A stretch of 64,000 nt of DNA from Candidatus Hebobacterum abditum (lineage in GTDB: Bacteria > Armatimonadota > Hebobacteria > Hebobacterales > Hebobacteraceae): assembly GCA_029821875.1 (NCBI GenBank), contig JALGXW010000004.1, forward strand, positions 62,001 to 126,000, given 5' to 3'. The number at the start of each line of letters is the position of its first letter. The first letter of the stretch is position 1. This document shows positions 8,785-16,990 of the stretch, piece by piece. The notes under the pieces are model-generated. The model made no database searches, was not told the DNA's origin, and saw only the letters and a list, made by a program, of their open reading frames with translations. Position numbers and translations under genes: made by a program.

Positions 8785-9062
8785 TAGCCCGCGCCGACTT
8801 GCCCCCTGCCGATCGCCGGTTGCGGTGGGGGGCCGCGCCACGCGGGAACTCCTCTGTGGGGCTGAGACAGCCGCTCCCCGTGCCTGAGAACCGCTGAGGG
8901 AAGTTTGGCCGGCCCGAGAACAGGACGTCTCCAAGGCGCGTCTAATAGATCAAGCAGGAGCGGGCATCTGGCCTGCCGGTTGAGTTCCCCCCTTCTGAGC
9001 TCCTGTCGAGCGCACTGCGCCTTGCGCAGCGCAGAGCCTTCCAGCATCACCGGAGGATGGAC

Positions 9063-12000
9063 ATGGGGCGAGCACAGCGGCGCATCTCCCTGTACGTCGT
9101 TCTTCTCCTCTCTCTCACGACCCCAGCGGCGGCCGACATGTGGATCGAGTTGGCCCCCATGCACTACGCGCGCGCCGAAGCGGGCGTTATCACATTCGAT
9201 GGGAAGGTGTGGGTCTTTGGCGGGAGGGACTATGGTCCTCCTGAAGTCTGGCACGACACTGTGGAAGTGTACGATCCGGCCACAGACACCTGGGCGATGA
9301 AGGCCCCCATGCCCCAGCCCCGAGCCAGCACCGCGGCAACCACGTACGACGGTAAGATCTACGTTTTCGGCGGAAACATCGGCGCCTCCAAGTACCGCAA
9401 CACATGGGTCTACGATCCCGGCGACGACACCTGGTCTACCGGCGCCGACATCCCCGGCCACTACAAGGACAAGGGCCGCACTGGCGCAATGGCCATCGAG
9501 GTAGACGACGAGATCTGGCTCATCGGGGGCTACGGTGGGTCCACGCCTCAGGAGTCCAGAGTCGACATCTACGACCCGGCCACGGACACCTGGCGTGACG
9601 GCCCGCCGCTCAATAGTCCTCTCCAGGGCTCAGGCGTCTTCGAGTACGAAGGTATCCTCTATGGCCTACTGACGATCCGCGACCCGCATGCCTATCCGCC
9701 CAAGAACGGCGGCGTCGAGATCTGCGACCCGTCGGACGTGTCGCCGAGCTGGAACGAGGTGTCCGTGTTCTACCCGGGGCGGTTTGCCGCGTGGGCTTTG
9801 CTCGGGGACAAGATCTATGGTATCGGCGGAAGCGACGGCGCGGTCAGTTACTACCACGACGTGCTAGTCTACGACATCGCCGGCAACTCCTGGTCCTACG
9901 CCGATCCCTCGCCGCCCGAGTACCCGGTCTCAGGAACCGGAGGCGGAGGAAGCGGGGCCGCGGTTATCGGAGACGCGATATATGTGCCGGGAGGGTTCTG
10001 GGGGAGCTCTCTCGCCCGCCTCCTCGCATACGTCCCCGGGCCGGCCAAGCCGCCCGTCTGGCCGCCTGTGGACGACTTCGAGTCGTATCCCGCGCCGCCC
10101 AGCCCCCCGTGGGAGCCGATCCACTGCAAACCAGGCTGGACAAGCTCCGACTCGTTCTATGGAGTGGGCTGGACCATCACCGATGACGGGGCCGACCCCG
10201 CGGGCCACAAGTATCTCCGCTTCTGGCCCTCGCCGTGGCCCGGCGGATACGACGCCGCGTCCAACTACGCCAGGTGGCACGTCCGATCGCCCACCACCAT
10301 CACTGATCTCGGTCTGGCGCTGGACTACATCGTGCAGGCGAACGCGGATGTGCAGGTGCTCATATCGGGCGACGGGACAAGCTGGACTGACGTCACTCAC
10401 CTGCTTGGCATTGAGCACTTCGACTCAGGGCCATTCCGCGAGGCGGTAGCTGACCTGTCATCGCTGATAGGCTCAGCAGGCATCACAACAGATGTGTACG
10501 TGGAGCTGCGGGCGGCCGCCTATGCGGGCATCAACTGGGTCGTCGGCATCGACCGCATTGAACTGCTCGTCAACGAACAGCCGCCGGTGCCGGGACTCGA
10601 CCTTCTCGCCTTCGAGTCCGACCGCGCCGGCAACCTCGACATCTGGACCATCTGGTCGGACGGAAGCAATCTCACCCAGATCACGACCGATCCGGCCCGC
10701 GACAGCGAGCCGGCCTGGTCTCCTGATGGCAGGAAGATCGCATTCTCCTCCCACCGGGCCGGCAATGGTGATGCCGACATCTGGGTGATCGATGCCGAAA
10801 CGCGAGAGCTCTGGCAGATCACGTCTGACGCCGCTGATGAGATCGCGGCCACCTGGTCTCCCGATGGCGCCAGGATCGCCTACTGGCACGACTACGCGTC
10901 AGTGCGCATCGTTGACGTCGCCGATCTGGGCAATCCGGGGACGCCGACGCTCTTGACTGAGAAGCATGCAACGACGCCCGACTGGTGCGTGAACGGTTAT
11001 GTCGCGTTCATGTCCAACCACGGGCACTGGGGCGTCTACAGCATCTGGGCGAAGAATCCCGACACGGGGCACGAGTACGAGGTGGTGCAGTACGTCGGTG
11101 GCGCGGGCGCCTACCATCCCTCCTGGTCATCAGACGGTCTGGAGCTCGCCTATGCCAATCTCCAGACTGGCAGCGCCAGCTCCCACAACGAGGACATCTT
11201 CGTGTCGCCCAAGGATGGTCCGCTCCCGAACCTCGGAGAGCAGATCACCTTCGACTCTGTCATCGGCAATACGGGGACAGCGGACCATCACCCCGACTGG
11301 TCGCCGTCGGGACGGTGGATCTACTTCACGAGGCTGGTGCACCAATCCCCGATCGAAGAGGCGGACATCTGGGTCGTCAACCGCGATGGGACCGGTCTGC
11401 GAAACGTCACGAACCGACCAGATGGCCGGGACACCTGGCCATCAGTCACGTCTGTGCAGTACGCGGATCCGTGTTGGGCAGAGAGCTTCGAGTATGAGGA
11501 CACGCCGCTGAACCACGGCTGGACAGTCTACTCGCCAGGCGCGAAAGGGACGCCCTACACCACGACGGAGCTGGCATCGGATGGGCTGAGGAGTCTCAGA
11601 TGCGAGGGCTACACGGACTCCCTCCATTATCGCTTCCCTGACGAGTTGGATGCCACGCGCGTCACCGCCAGATTCTACGACGACGGAGATTGGGGGTACC
11701 ACGATGAGGCGGTAGTTGCCACGTACTGGGACGATGACACCCAGTTTCTGGGACTGGGGAAGTACATGGGCCCCGGCAGTAACTACTACGTCTTCGACGG
11801 TACCGGGACCCACGGGACGCCTGTCCCCGTCTCTGTCGGATGGCACCTGTTCGAGTGGGTGCACGATGCTGGCAGCGTGCACCTGTACATAGACGGAGTG
11901 CATTGCGGCACCTATGCCGCTTCCACACTTAGTACAGTTGCCCTGGGAGCCGGCGAGGTGGGGATGTACGTCGACGACATGAAGGTCTACTGCACGCTCT

Positions 12001-13784
12001 ACGAGCCGTTCGATCAGGACCTGATAGCCTTCGAGTCCGACCGCTCCGGCAACTTCGACATCTGGACGATGTGGTCCGATGGGACCCACCTTACCCAGAT
12101 CACGACCGATCCGGCCGATGATCGCTATGCAGACTGGTCACCGGACGGGACCAAGATAGCATTCACCTCCCACCGGGCCGGCAATGGTGATGCCGACATC
12201 TGGGTGATCGATGCCGAAACGCGAGAGCTCTGGCAGATTACGTCTGACGCCGTCGATGAGATCGCGGCCACCTGGTCTCCCGATGGCGCCAGGATCGCCT
12301 ACTGGTACGACTACACGTTAGTGCGCATCGTTGACGTCTCCGATCTGGGCAGTCCCGGGACGCCGACGCTCTTGACTGAGAAGCACTCAATGGGGCCCGA
12401 CTGGTGTGTAAACGGGTACATCGCGTTCCAGTCGAACCACGGGCACTGGGGCGTCTACAGCATCTGGGCGAAGAACCCCGACACGGGACACGAGTACGAG
12501 GTGGTGCAGTACGTCGGCGGCGCGGGCGCCTACGATCCGGCCTGGTCGCCAGACGGGCTAGAAGTGGCCTATTCGAACCTCCAGAGCGGCAGCCCGAGCA
12601 TACACAACGACGACATCTATGTCGCTCCAAAAGACGGGCCCCTTCCCAACCTTGGGGAGCAGATCACCAGCGACTCCGTGGTCGCTCACGCGGGCGTTGG
12701 CGACACCAACTCGGCATGGTCTCCTTCAGGCGCTCGCATCTACTTCACGCGCTGGGTCTATGACCTCGGACAGCATGACATCTTCGTCGTGAACCGCGAT
12801 GGTACCGGCTTGAGGAACATAACGAACAGGCCGGAAGGTATCGATAGCTGGCCATCGGTGACGAGTCTGATCGAATACGAATGCCTCCCCGTCGAGATCG
12901 ACATCAAGCCGGGAAGCGAACACAATCCCGTCAATCCAAAGTCGCAGGGAGTCCTGCCGGTCGCCGTGTTCTCCTCCGAGAGCTTCGATGCGACCGACAT
13001 AGACGCGAGCACGGTCCTGCTCGCCGGCGCGCCGGTGGAGCAGAGCCCCGATGACGGGCGCTACCTTGTCCACGAGCAAGACGTGGACGGCGACGGCCTG
13101 ACGGACCTGATGCTCCACTTCGACACCGAAGGGTTGGATGAGGAAGAGCTGGCCACCGGCTGGGCCATGTTGGTCGGCAGCACGTACGGCGATATCTGCT
13201 TTGAAGGCCACGACAACGTCACCGTCGTGCCACACGACATCCCCAACGACCACTGGGCCATCGAGTACATCGCCGCCTGCATGAACGCCGATACCGTGTA
13301 TGGCTACGCTGACGGCACCTATCAGCCCACGTGGGACGTGGGTCGTGACCAGATGGCGGCATATGTGTCCCGCGCCACGGCCGGCGGTGATGACAGTGTG
13401 CCTGACGCGGTCGCCGACCCCACCTTCCCGGATGTGCCCGACGATCATTGGGCCTACAGCTACATCGAGTACGTGGTGAGCACAGAGATCGTCGAGGGCT
13501 ATCCCGATGGCGAGTACAAGCCGGCTGAAGTGGTCACCCGCGATCAGCTGGCAGTGTACATCGCGCGTGCGCGCGGATGGCTTGGGATAGAGGACCCGCT
13601 GGACACAGCGCCGGAGATCTTCCCTGATGTGCCGGCAGGCTATTGGGCCGGGGAGGCCATCGCTGCCTGTCTGAACCACGGCGTCGCAAAGGGGTACGAA
13701 GATGGTTCCTATCTCCCCGACGAGGCCGTGAGCCGGGACCAGATGGCAGCTTACATCTCGCGAGCCTTCGAGTTGTTGAACTAG
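9063..13784 (+). CDS. very large surface protein: Kelch repeats, two TolB-like propellers, three SLH domains
   Basis: A 1573-residue exported protein held at the surface by SLH domains. GGAGG at 9052-9056 is six bases before ATG 9063, so this start is preferred to ATG 9057. A signal peptide is followed by a Kelch propeller at about 20-325 (units like VEVYDPATDTW, KIYVFGG). A jelly-roll-like segment comes next. There are two TolB/WD40-like blocks (ESDRAGNLDIWTIWSDG, IDAETRELWQI) that are near copies, separated by a concanavalin-like segment. A domain beginning VEIDIKPGSEHNPVN follows at about 1277-1385, and then SLH domains at about 1395-1570 (DHWAIEYIAACMN, YPDGEYKPAEVVTRDQ). SLH domains bind pyruvylated or other cell-wall polymers. 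Confidence 0.9.
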   Translation: MGRAQRRISLYVVLLLSLTTPAAADMWIELAPMHYARAEAGVITFDGKVWVFGGRDYGPPEVWHDTVEVYDPATDTWAMKAPMPQPRASTAATTYDGKIYVFGGNIGASKYRNTWVYDPGDDTWSTGADIPGHYKDKGRTGAMAIEVDDEIWLIGGYGGSTPQESRVDIYDPATDTWRDGPPLNSPLQGSGVFEYEGILYGLLTIRDPHAYPPKNGGVEICDPSDVSPSWNEVSVFYPGRFAAWALLGDKIYGIGGSDGAVSYYHDVLVYDIAGNSWSYADPSPPEYPVSGTGGGGSGAAVIGDAIYVPGGFWGSSLARLLAYVPGPAKPPVWPPVDDFESYPAPPSPPWEPIHCKPGWTSSDSFYGVGWTITDDGADPAGHKYLRFWPSPWPGGYDAASNYARWHVRSPTTITDLGLALDYIVQANADVQVLISGDGTSWTDVTHLLGIEHFDSGPFREAVADLSSLIGSAGITTDVYVELRAAAYAGINWVVGIDRIELLVNEQPPVPGLDLLAFESDRAGNLDIWTIWSDGSNLTQITTDPARDSEPAWSPDGRKIAFSSHRAGNGDADIWVIDAETRELWQITSDAADEIAATWSPDGARIAYWHDYASVRIVDVADLGNPGTPTLLTEKHATTPDWCVNGYVAFMSNHGHWGVYSIWAKNPDTGHEYEVVQYVGGAGAYHPSWSSDGLELAYANLQTGSASSHNEDIFVSPKDGPLPNLGEQITFDSVIGNTGTADHHPDWSPSGRWIYFTRLVHQSPIEEADIWVVNRDGTGLRNVTNRPDGRDTWPSVTSVQYADPCWAESFEYEDTPLNHGWTVYSPGAKGTPYTTTELASDGLRSLRCEGYTDSLHYRFPDELDATRVTARFYDDGDWGYHDEAVVATYWDDDTQFLGLGKYMGPGSNYYVFDGTGTHGTPVPVSVGWHLFEWVHDAGSVHLYIDGVHCGTYAASTLSTVALGAGEVGMYVDDMKVYCTLYEPFDQDLIAFESDRSGNFDIWTMWSDGTHLTQITTDPADDRYADWSPDGTKIAFTSHRAGNGDADIWVIDAETRELWQITSDAVDEIAATWSPDGARIAYWYDYTLVRIVDVSDLGSPGTPTLLTEKHSMGPDWCVNGYIAFQSNHGHWGVYSIWAKNPDTGHEYEVVQYVGGAGAYDPAWSPDGLEVAYSNLQSGSPSIHNDDIYVAPKDGPLPNLGEQITSDSVVAHAGVGDTNSAWSPSGARIYFTRWVYDLGQHDIFVVNRDGTGLRNITNRPEGIDSWPSVTSLIEYECLPVEIDIKPGSEHNPVNPKSQGVLPVAVFSSESFDATDIDASTVLLAGAPVEQSPDDGRYLVHEQDVDGDGLTDLMLHFDTEGLDEEELATGWAMLVGSTYGDICFEGHDNVTVVPHDIPNDHWAIEYIAACMNADTVYGYADGTYQPTWDVGRDQMAAYVSRATAGGDDSVPDAVADPTFPDVPDDHWAYSYIEYVVSTEIVEGYPDGEYKPAEVVTRDQLAVYIARARGWLGIEDPLDTAPEIFPDVPAGYWAGEAIAACLNHGVAKGYEDGSYLPDEAVSRDQMAAYISRAFELLN
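10606..12868 (+). repeat. internal direct duplication of the TolB-like block
   Basis: Copy 1 (about 10606-11455) and copy 2 (about 12025-12868) are shifted by 1419 bases, or 473 codons, falling to 1413 near the end through a small deletion. The stretches 10751-10900 and 12170-12319 are almost identical in DNA. That points to a recent duplication or ongoing gene conversion. Confidence 0.9.
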
Positions 13785-15172: not shown

Positions 15173-15757
15173 ATGCGCGCCCTGAGACTCCTCGCCTTCA
15201 GTCTCACCTGCACTGCACTTGTGGCTGCTCCGCCCCTCAGCCCGGCAGCCGAGATGAGGTCCTCCGGCGCGGCGCCACAGGTGACGATCAGCAACACCGG
15301 CATGGAGGGACTGTCGGAAGTGCAGGTTCAGGTGCACCTGGCGGGAGGGGCGGACTGGCGCGAGCTGGCCGATCTGGACGAGACCAAGCTCAGGGGGCAC
15401 GTCGAAGACCTCGTAAAGGGCACGCCCGGACTGGTCCTGATCGAAGGGCACGGCTCAGTCCGGGCTCCTCGCCTCCTGGTGATGGCCGTTGGTCACCTCA
15501 TTGCTGACCCAGAAGGGAACAAGGATACCTCGGCAACCAATCTCTCAATCAGCCTCAATCAGCCGGTGTCGGTCCGGCGCTCTCCGCCCTCTGGCAGGCC
15601 GATCCTGACCAGCGGCATGACCTGGCATAGGAGCATCCTCATCACTGGCCTGAACGACTCGATGCGCCAGCGTGTGGCCTACAAGCTGGCCTATCTGGTC
15701 GGGCAGTTCAAGGCCGAACATCTGAAGGCCAATCCTTCCGAAGCCGAAGAGGGGTAA
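15173..15757 (+). CDS. secreted protein of unknown function
   Basis: A 194-residue protein with a clear signal peptide (MRALRLLAFSLTCTALVAA, cleavage near SPA). GGGAGGGG lies just before the ATG. The mature part has a beta-rich segment (LSEVQVQVHLAGG), an acidic helix and an ending LAYLVGQFKAEHLKANPSE. I do not recognise a family. It sits 25 bases after the hexuloisomerase-like gene and is probably co-transcribed. Its last 50 bases overlap the convergent nucleotidyltransferase gene. Confidence 0.7.
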   Translation: MRALRLLAFSLTCTALVAAPPLSPAAEMRSSGAAPQVTISNTGMEGLSEVQVQVHLAGGADWRELADLDETKLRGHVEDLVKGTPGLVLIEGHGSVRAPRLLVMAVGHLIADPEGNKDTSATNLSISLNQPVSVRRSPPSGRPILTSGMTWHRSILITGLNDSMRQRVAYKLAYLVGQFKAEHLKANPSEAEEG

Positions 15758-16367
15758 CGTTCGCGTCGGCCTGGAGCACGAGCGACAGGAACCGATCCAG
15801 GGCCTTCTGCGGCACGCTGGTCTCCGCCGCCCGATGGCGGAAGTACGCCGCATCGAAGTTGGGCTCGAACGCGGGCGAGGCGGTGATCTCTCGCAGCTTC
15901 TCCCACCTCTCCATCAGGACCGAGACGAGCAGCGACTCCTCCAGTGGGATCACCGGCAGGCGCTGGTCACCGAGGGGGAAGAACGCGATCCGATCGCGGA
16001 ACCGAGAGAAGCGGCCGACGTAGTGTGAGTCCCCCGCCCGTATCTCGCAGTCGACACAGATGTCGACACGTGCCCCGCAGACCTCGTAGTGCCCCATCTT
16101 GCTCAGCCAGCCGCGGGCGTCCGTGTGGTGCGGTAGCGAGACCTGGTAGCTCGCGAGGGCGCGGGCCACCACACACTCATGCTCTTCGGGCACATCGACG
16201 TCGATGTCCTGCGGCACCACGTCGAAGCCGCGGAGCCGCTGCGCGACGCTCCCGCCCAGTGCCCATACCACTCCCGGTAGGGGCAAGGTGTCTGCAAGCA
16301 GGCACAGCGCCTCGCCGATGCTGGCCGGCAGCGGATATCTCGGAGTGATCCCTTCCTTGTCCGACAT
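15708..16367 (-). CDS. nucleotidyltransferase-fold protein
   Basis: A 219-residue protein with a minimal nucleotidyltransferase signature: VVWALGGSVAQRLRGFDVVPQDIDVDV at about 32-58 gives the GGS and the metal-binding D-x-D. A further acidic strand RVDICVD follows near 105. The family includes AbiEii-like and antibiotic-type transferases as well as proteins of unknown role. No HEPN or antitoxin gene is adjacent, so a toxin role is not supported. It overlaps the convergent secreted-protein gene by 50 bases. It follows rpmB on the same strand after a strong hairpin and so probably has its own transcript. Confidence 0.65.
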   Translation of the reverse strand: MSDKEGITPRYPLPASIGEALCLLADTLPLPGVVWALGGSVAQRLRGFDVVPQDIDVDVPEEHECVVARALASYQVSLPHHTDARGWLSKMGHYEVCGARVDICVDCEIRAGDSHYVGRFSRFRDRIAFFPLGDQRLPVIPLEESLLVSVLMERWEKLREITASPAFEPNFDAAYFRHRAAETSVPQKALDRFLSLVLQADANVTPLRLRKDWPSDVRP

Positions 16368-16449: not shown

Positions 16450-16482
16450 AGCGAAGGGCGGGGCCAGCGCCCGCCCTTCGCT
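16450..16482 (-). terminator. terminator-like hairpin after rpmB
   Basis: AGCGAAGGGCGGG and CCCGCCCTTCGCT form a perfect 13-bp stem with a 7-base loop, 10 bases after the rpmB stop. Only a short TGTT follows on the minus strand. Confidence 0.6.
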
Positions 16483-16492
16483 TCAAGACACC

Positions 16493-16726
16493 TCAGCTGC
16501 GGGGCCGCGCCACCCGGCCGGCCTTCAAGCACTTTGCGCAGACTCTGAGGCGGACGACGCGCCCGTTGACGGACGTTCTCACACTCTGTAGATTTGGCAA
16601 CTGCCGGCGCCTGGACCGCTTGACGACCCGGGAACCGACTCCCCCCTCCTTCTTGGGCTTGCCACGCCGTGAGATCTTCGAACCCGTCAGCGGCCCCTTG
16701 CCGCAGATAGTGCAGACTCGTGACAT
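16493..16726 (-). CDS. rpmB: 50S ribosomal protein L28
   Basis: A 77-residue protein of the bL28 family, part of the large ribosomal subunit. It shows the family start [20 protein letters not shown] and a basic core ([13 protein letters not shown]). The C-terminal [10 protein letters not shown], with CTIC, completes a four-cysteine zinc site (C+ form of L28). ATG 16726 has AAGGAG just before it; an in-frame upstream start would lengthen the protein without homology. The gene has a distant consensus promoter and a structured leader. The usual partner rpmG is not adjacent. Confidence 0.95.
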
Positions 16727-16752
16727 CTCGTTCTCCTTCCCCGGAGAACGAG
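16727..16752 (-). promoter_or_regulatory. hairpin sequestering the rpmB ribosome-binding site
   Basis: Read on the minus strand, CTCGTTCTCC, loop GGGGAA, GGAGAACGAG forms a perfect 10-bp stem that ends directly at the ATG. Most of the AAGGAG ribosome-binding site lies in the 3' arm and would be hidden when the stem forms. This suggests translational control of L28 synthesis. Confidence 0.6.
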
Positions 16753-16768
16753 CAGGGATCATAGGAAA

Positions 16769-16798
16769 GCCGCCGGTCTACGGAAGAAGACCGGCGGC
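16769..16798 (-). promoter_or_regulatory. terminator-like hairpin in the rpmB leader
   Basis: On the minus strand GCCGCCGGTCT, an 8-base loop and AGACCGGCGGC form an 11-bp perfect stem followed by TTTCC. It lies inside the predicted rpmB transcript, about 43 bases before the ATG. It could be an attenuator, or the terminator of a short leader RNA. Confidence 0.55.
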
Positions 16799-16961
16799 CG
16801 CTGGTTGACACATCGCGCACAGCCCTGCCGTTCTCTCCGGGTAGACGCATCGCTGCTGCGCGCGCCGGCATCTCAGCGCCAGAGCGCGTGCTCCTCGACT
16901 TCAGCGTTTGCGTCCACCCGTCAATCCGGCATAGGACCTCGTTGCGTCGTGGAATGACGAG

Positions 16962-16990
16962 ATACTACTCCGCGCGGGCCGAGGTGTCAA
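16962..16990 (-). promoter_or_regulatory. sigma-70 promoter for rpmB
   Basis: TTGACA (16985-16990) and TAGTAT (16962-16967) on the minus strand are 17 bases apart. The start near 16955 gives a leader of about 230 bases before rpmB. The region 16763-17089 otherwise holds no gene I can support. Confidence 0.7.

Follow-up and report, generated by a model that had tools for sequence, protein, structure and literature searches.

The rpmB gene considered here lies in a stretch of 64,000 nucleotides (the window) from an Armatimonadota genome that has two genes for ribosomal protein L28, of which this is the second and divergent one. Its leader RNA is real, conserved and narrowly distributed. Four strands of that RNA are predicted to enter mutually exclusive pairings (1:2, 2:3 and 3:4), with the Shine-Dalgarno sequence (SD) of rpmB in strand 4, and the corresponding folds are predicted in all three genomes that carry the gene. 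The reading that we favor, at a probability of about one in two, is that the leader acts in cis as a translational switch of a transferable second rpmB, with a ribosome on a very short upstream open reading frame (the mini-ORF) as the likeliest occupant of strand 1. If such a switch travels with an alternative L28 gene, it would offer a concrete and testable example of ribosome heterogeneity under regulation; an open reading frame of three codons would be near the minimum for a ribosome-based attenuator.

The gene is a real rpmB, as originally predicted, with a match to the Pfam family Ribosomal_L28 at E 3e-16; what had been taken for ‘the’ rpmB of the genome is the divergent second copy, and the ordinary copy is without such a leader. 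The latter (L001, on contig C42 of G000) is the usual Armatimonadota gene, behind a short leader. In a tree of L28 proteins the window copy falls in a separate clade, for which two other members were found: one in G001, of the same genus (84% identity), and one in G010, of the same class but a different family (67% identity). The closest L28s outside the clade are those of Omnitrophota. The clade is present in three of about 290 Armatimonadota genomes; a search of 397 relatives passed these same three copies only, and among viral contigs neither the DNA pattern nor the protein found a match. Third codon positions carry most of the changes between the second rpmB copies, which indicates that selection acts on the protein. 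Pairs of duplicated L28 genes, one with and one without a zinc ribbon, are known under the control of Zur. The present case resembles these in having two rpmB genes in one genome and differs in that both copies retain the four cysteines of the ribbon; a zinc-saving C+/C- pair is thereby ruled out.

Neighboring genes are common to the window and G001, whereas the window and G010 share rpmB only. Because the gene is accompanied by its leader even where the genomes have no neighbors in common, the two move as a unit; the recurrence of a separate clade in another family, among different neighbors, suggests from sequence that the second rpmB is transferable. The neighbors of rpmB in G010 are a gene for a LexA-like S24 peptidase and one of GH116 type. 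The LexA-like gene (HTH plus peptidase S24; L033, 2495-3181) is upstream of the rpmB paralog on the same strand, and is possibly a mobile-element context.

The leaders of the window, its genus mate (L032) and G010 (L033, from the other family) were aligned, two of the three being close. All three present the same order of parts: promoter, a hairpin element of about 120 nt, a GC-rich hairpin and an SD-hiding hairpin (Table 1 gives the parts in the window). The consensus promoter that had been proposed far from the gene is found there, and TTGACA-N17-TANNNT has the same position in both relatives. Transcription would start near 16955, making the leader about 229 nt long, in line with the ~230 bases first proposed. 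The whole leader folds with a z of -3.8, better than all 200 shuffles. Perfect hairpins (at least 10 bp, loop of at most 10) are scarce: the 64-kb window has four distinct ones, three of them at rpmB (two in the leader, one after the gene), and five dinucleotide shuffles of the whole window contained 0-2. Unconserved stems, or a transcript start close to the ATG, would have counted against the original prediction; judging by sequence, the stems recur in the relatives and the start is distant. That prediction did not include what proves to be the most informative part of the leader, the conserved element of ~120 nt and its complementarity to the anti-SD strand.

Table 1. The second rpmB, its leader and the hairpin that follows it, in the order of transcription (positions are those of the window)
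Feature	Sequence or description	Position	Strand	Remarks
Promoter	-35 TTGACA, 17-nt spacer, -10 TAGTAT	16962-16990	minus	10/12 consensus matches
Leader element	long interrupted hairpin: P1, P2, internal loop, P3, variable terminal loop	16822-16941	minus	from folding and covariance model
Putative mini-ORF Shine-Dalgarno	GAGG	16937-16940	minus	invariant in 3/3; two of four bases unpaired in the element
Strand 1	GGTCCT-AT-GCCG, 5' side of P1/P2	16927-16938	minus	pairs with strand 2 in 3/3
Putative mini-ORF	ATG CCG GAT TGA (Met-Pro-Asp-stop)	16921-16932	minus	inferred from sequence
P3, 5' arm	CGGGTGGACGC	16910-16920	minus	pairs with 16838-16848
Terminal loop of element	variable	16849-16909	minus	17/61 columns identical in all three leaders
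P3, 3' arm	GCGTCTACCCG	16838-16848	minus	pairs with 16910-16920
Strand 2	CCGGAGAGAACGGCAGGGC	16822-16840	minus	can pair with strand 1 or strand 3
GC-rich hairpin, 11 bp	GCCGCCGGTCT-TCTTCCGT-AGACCGGCGGC, 8-nt loop	16769-16798	minus	between strands 2 and 3
Strand 3 (anti-SD)	CCCTGCTCGTTCTCCGG	16741-16757	minus	complementary to strand 2
SD-hiding hairpin	perfect, 10 bp, 6-nt loop	16727-16752	minus	about -17 kcal/mol
Strand 4	GGAGAACGAG, 3' arm of the SD hairpin	16727-16736	minus	abuts the ATG; SD GGAG at 16733-16736
rpmB paralog	77 aa, zinc-ribbon L28 with insert	16493-16726	minus	ATG at 16726
Hairpin after rpmB	perfect, 13 bp, no T-run	16450-16482	minus	14-bp counterpart in the genus mate (L178, 6189-6223)

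The element consists of P1 (GGYCCU/AGGGCY), P2 (GCCG/CGGC), an internal loop and an 11-bp P3. Standard pairs occupy 63 of the 63 cells of this structure in the alignment, as against 33-41% when the partners are slid. The paired strands of the leader are near-invariant between families, and loops and spacers have diverged: in the three-leader alignment conservation is 16/17 for strand 3, 12/13 for strand 4 plus the ATG, 14/16 for strand 2, 17/23 for strand 1 plus the mini-ORF, and 8/11 and 9/11 for the arms of P3; it is 3/23 columns for the spacer and 4/20 for the stretch from the -10 to the element, the terminal loop being the third divergent part. Two pairs of P3 have changed on both sides, and one has gone from G-U to A-U. 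Compensatory pairs, proposed at the outset as the support to look for, are thus present in the main stem (2/21 in the element as a whole); the count is not significant by the shuffle control (117/500), as three sequences would lead one to expect.

Distribution follows the gene. A covariance model made from the genus pair alone retrieves the G010 copy (53 bits, E 1.3e-12, in 52 kb), and the three-sequence model places one element copy in each of the three genomes, only at the second rpmB; the ordinary rpmB of this genome, of the genus mate and of G010 carries none. The three-sequence model found no convincing element in the other 288 Armatimonadota genomes. Its three weak matches elsewhere in the phylum (21-25 bits, E 0.02-0.1 per genome) are at chance level, being fewer than chance expectation over 291 genomes. 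No element was found in 285 Omnitrophota genomes, a set without a positive control, and other L28 kin, 39 genomes in all, gave a single match at the level of chance. At permissive thresholds Rfam had no match in 10 kb with an E of 1 or below, and in 0.6 kb only chance matches (E 3-8, far below gathering scores); neither tRNA nor tmRNA was found within the leader.

At the other end of the leader, the perfect 10-bp stem that had been described as touching the ATG, with the SD in its 3' arm, was found as stated, and has counterparts of 10 bp in L032 and, with one G-U, in L033. Its stability across the three genomes, -15 to -17 kcal/mol, is too great for an RNA thermometer, which was put aside. 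Beyond the earlier description, the anti-SD strand finds a second complement in the 3' strand of the element, which is also the partner of strand 1. Across the three genomes the 2:3 duplex amounts to -31.7, -28.5 and -25.3 kcal/mol, as against the -15 to -17 of the SD hairpin, and its 20-nt comparison value was reached by leader shuffles in 0, 0 and 1 of 300; few stretches of genome beat the 2:3 value, and these must include the opposite-strand perfect complement of the anti-SD. Strand 3 includes a CCCTG that takes no part in the SD hairpin and is nevertheless the same in all three leaders; it is complementary to strand 2, and the 2:3 pairing explains its invariance.

Partition-function folding bears on which pairings would form, and when. 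The complete free leader is predicted to adopt 1:2 and 3:4 in all three genomes. For transcripts that stop at strand 3 the prediction is mainly 2:3 in the window and mainly 1:2 in L032, with a mixture in L033; with the mini-ORF side blocked it is wholly 2:3 in all three. When the leader is extended through the ATG with strand 1 blocked, equilibrium gives mostly 2:3 in the window, a mixture in L032 and the SD hairpin in L033, so that an ON state in L033 would need kinetics, strand 3 being made before strand 4. One exception arises in the window itself: 2:3 is not favored if the ribosome sits on the stop codon and the fold takes in 40 nt of coding sequence. On three sequences, two of them from one genus, it is a well-supported proposition that the alternative pairings function as a translational switch. 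A constitutively weak leader, whose structure merely keeps expression of the second copy low and answers to no signal, would fit a free leader always predicted OFF; it leaves unexplained why the CCCTG, outside the SD hairpin, is invariant and why strands 2 and 3 have stayed complementary, and we regard it as very unlikely.

What might occupy strand 1 is suggested by the sequence over it: GAGG, four bases, then ATG CCG GAY TRR, the stop adjoining P3 so closely that it ends one base before the first P3 base. The version in L033 is ATG CCG GAC TAG, in which three substitutions (GAT to GAC, TGA to TAG) keep both Asp and stop. Invariant unpaired bases in strand 1 are the GA of GAGG, the AT of ATG, the GA of GAY and the T of the stop; this set is suggestive, and fits a mini-ORF better than other readings. 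Three codons are also few enough to have arisen by chance. As the trigger of the switch, the putative mini-ORF is attractive, and we would give it slightly less than even odds.

The translational switch would then work as follows. In the OFF state strand 1 would pair with strand 2; strand 3, left free, would pair with strand 4 and hide the SD of rpmB. In the ON state strand 1 would be occupied, strand 2 would capture strand 3, and the SD would be free. The likeliest occupant would be a ribosome initiating or pausing on Met-Pro-Asp-stop, of which the putative SD and start codon are within or beside strand 1, and the signal might be slow initiation or termination there, for instance under ribosome stress. 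Conservation, predicted pairings, their energetics and the travelling of leader with gene are found in the data; the start of transcription, translation of the mini-ORF, the direction of control and the signal belong to the model.

Erm-type attenuators, the ermC leader among them, have a short upstream ORF over strand 1 and the SD of the gene in strand 4. The rpmB leader resembles them in its four strands, in the assignment of 1:2 and 3:4 to OFF and of 2:3 to ON, and in its putative short upstream ORF over strand 1, the stop of which here abuts the long stem. It differs in several respects: the ermC leader peptide is far longer than the three putative codons; the erm gene codes for a methyltransferase, that of the present leader for a ribosomal protein with no drug link known; and an extra GC-rich hairpin stands between strands 2 and 3. 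That a mobile second L28 gene is governed by an erm-like attenuator with a three-codon mini-ORF, so that the state of translation would trigger a swap of L28, is a tentative extension and on balance doubtful.

The main rival, which the original prediction preferred, is autoregulation: surplus L28 from either copy would bind the element and stabilize 1:2, so that the SD would stay hidden. Leaders that bind ribosomal proteins are the usual reason for a structured leader before a single ribosomal protein gene, such as the long, conserved one found here; the OFF geometry suits a repressor that stabilizes the element; and there is one element copy per genome, at the second rpmB only. The same restriction also tells against the idea, as the ordinary rpmB genes of this genome, the genus mate and G010 are without the element. 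Mimicry of 23S rRNA yielded no significant match in the stretches compared (the partial 23S of this genome and one G002 stretch), where 10 of 100 shuffles did as well as the window element in its best alignment; mimicry may escape a comparison of sequence. The internal loop, which would be the natural binding site, is the variable part of the element. Ribosomal protein leaders in Rfam and in the 20 treated by Eckert et al. 2020 (PMC7247131) are alike in preceding a ribosomal protein gene with structured RNA; no Rfam model matches the present leader, and its gene product is a candidate ligand only. Among those 20 none is for L28, rpmB appearing solely in the title of a reference. A 2024 review (PMC10931766, citing Aseev et al. 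2016) reports the E. coli rpmB-rpmG operon as unresponsive to excess of its products and without feedback regulation. In line with the original prediction, neither Rfam nor the literature searched contains an L28 leader, and no paper found there attributes a leader RNA to rpmB or L28. The predicted regulatory element is upheld as a structured leader of a single ribosomal protein gene, and its control by L28 seems to us unlikely.

The internal loop bears also on the idea of a new riboswitch class for a metabolite or ion, in which the element would serve as aptamer and the SD hairpin would be the expression platform. The layout, an aptamer-like hairpin followed by an anti-SD/SD platform, is that of the textbook, and the leader is like translational riboswitches in that its hairpin domain overlaps the platform. 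Riboswitch cores, however, are usually better conserved than their stems. Here the stems are near-invariant and the loop reads GAUUGA/GAGAGAA in one lineage and GACUAG/GAGCAA in the other, differing at 3/6 positions on the 5' side and by substitution plus deletion on the 3' side. An aptamer core of invariant unpaired bases was thus absent from the two lineages compared, and the variation argues against an aptamer for a metabolite and, to a weak degree, against an L28-specific site. Nor does the leader have an Rfam match or a metabolic gene: it precedes one gene only, for a ribosomal protein. A riboswitch is quite improbable.

Between strands 2 and 3 the 11-bp stem originally called terminator-like is present. 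The terminator part of that description fares less well: the stem keeps 7 bp in L033; the tail after it reads TTTCCTAT in the window, CTTATGAT in the genus mate, whose stem is longer, and CCTCTGCT in L033, which leaves a weak T-run within the genus and none in L033; and a terminator scan did not report it. Transcription attenuation at this stem would draw on the window tail, which with 5 T in 8 is the most T-rich among the window's 16 hairpins of at least 8 bp. Against this, the tail is not conserved, the scan is silent, no anti-terminator pairing was seen, and the stem remains intact in both alternative states; attenuation of this kind is hardly credible. Compatible as it is with both states and lacking a conserved T-run, the stem does not make with the SD hairpin ‘two stacked control elements’, as had been proposed. 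It is at most a weak or leaky terminator, and probably serves as a spacer by which strands 2 and 3 come close to each other.

The 13-bp hairpin after rpmB is the probable end of the transcription unit; end hairpins here are seemingly without T-runs. Downstream of rpmB on the same strand, an ORF at 15708-16367 belongs to no Pfam family, has a counterpart at the same place in L032, and by eye resembles a nucleotidyltransferase. In its catalogue entry the genus mate belongs to Candidatus Hebobacteria, which were described among Armatimonadota of marine sediment (PMC10290634). Elsewhere in the window, positions 9057-13784 encode a predicted protein of 1575 residues. Inspection by eye suggests that it is secreted or exposed at the surface, with repeats resembling those of beta-propellers and an S-layer-like region at the C-terminus.
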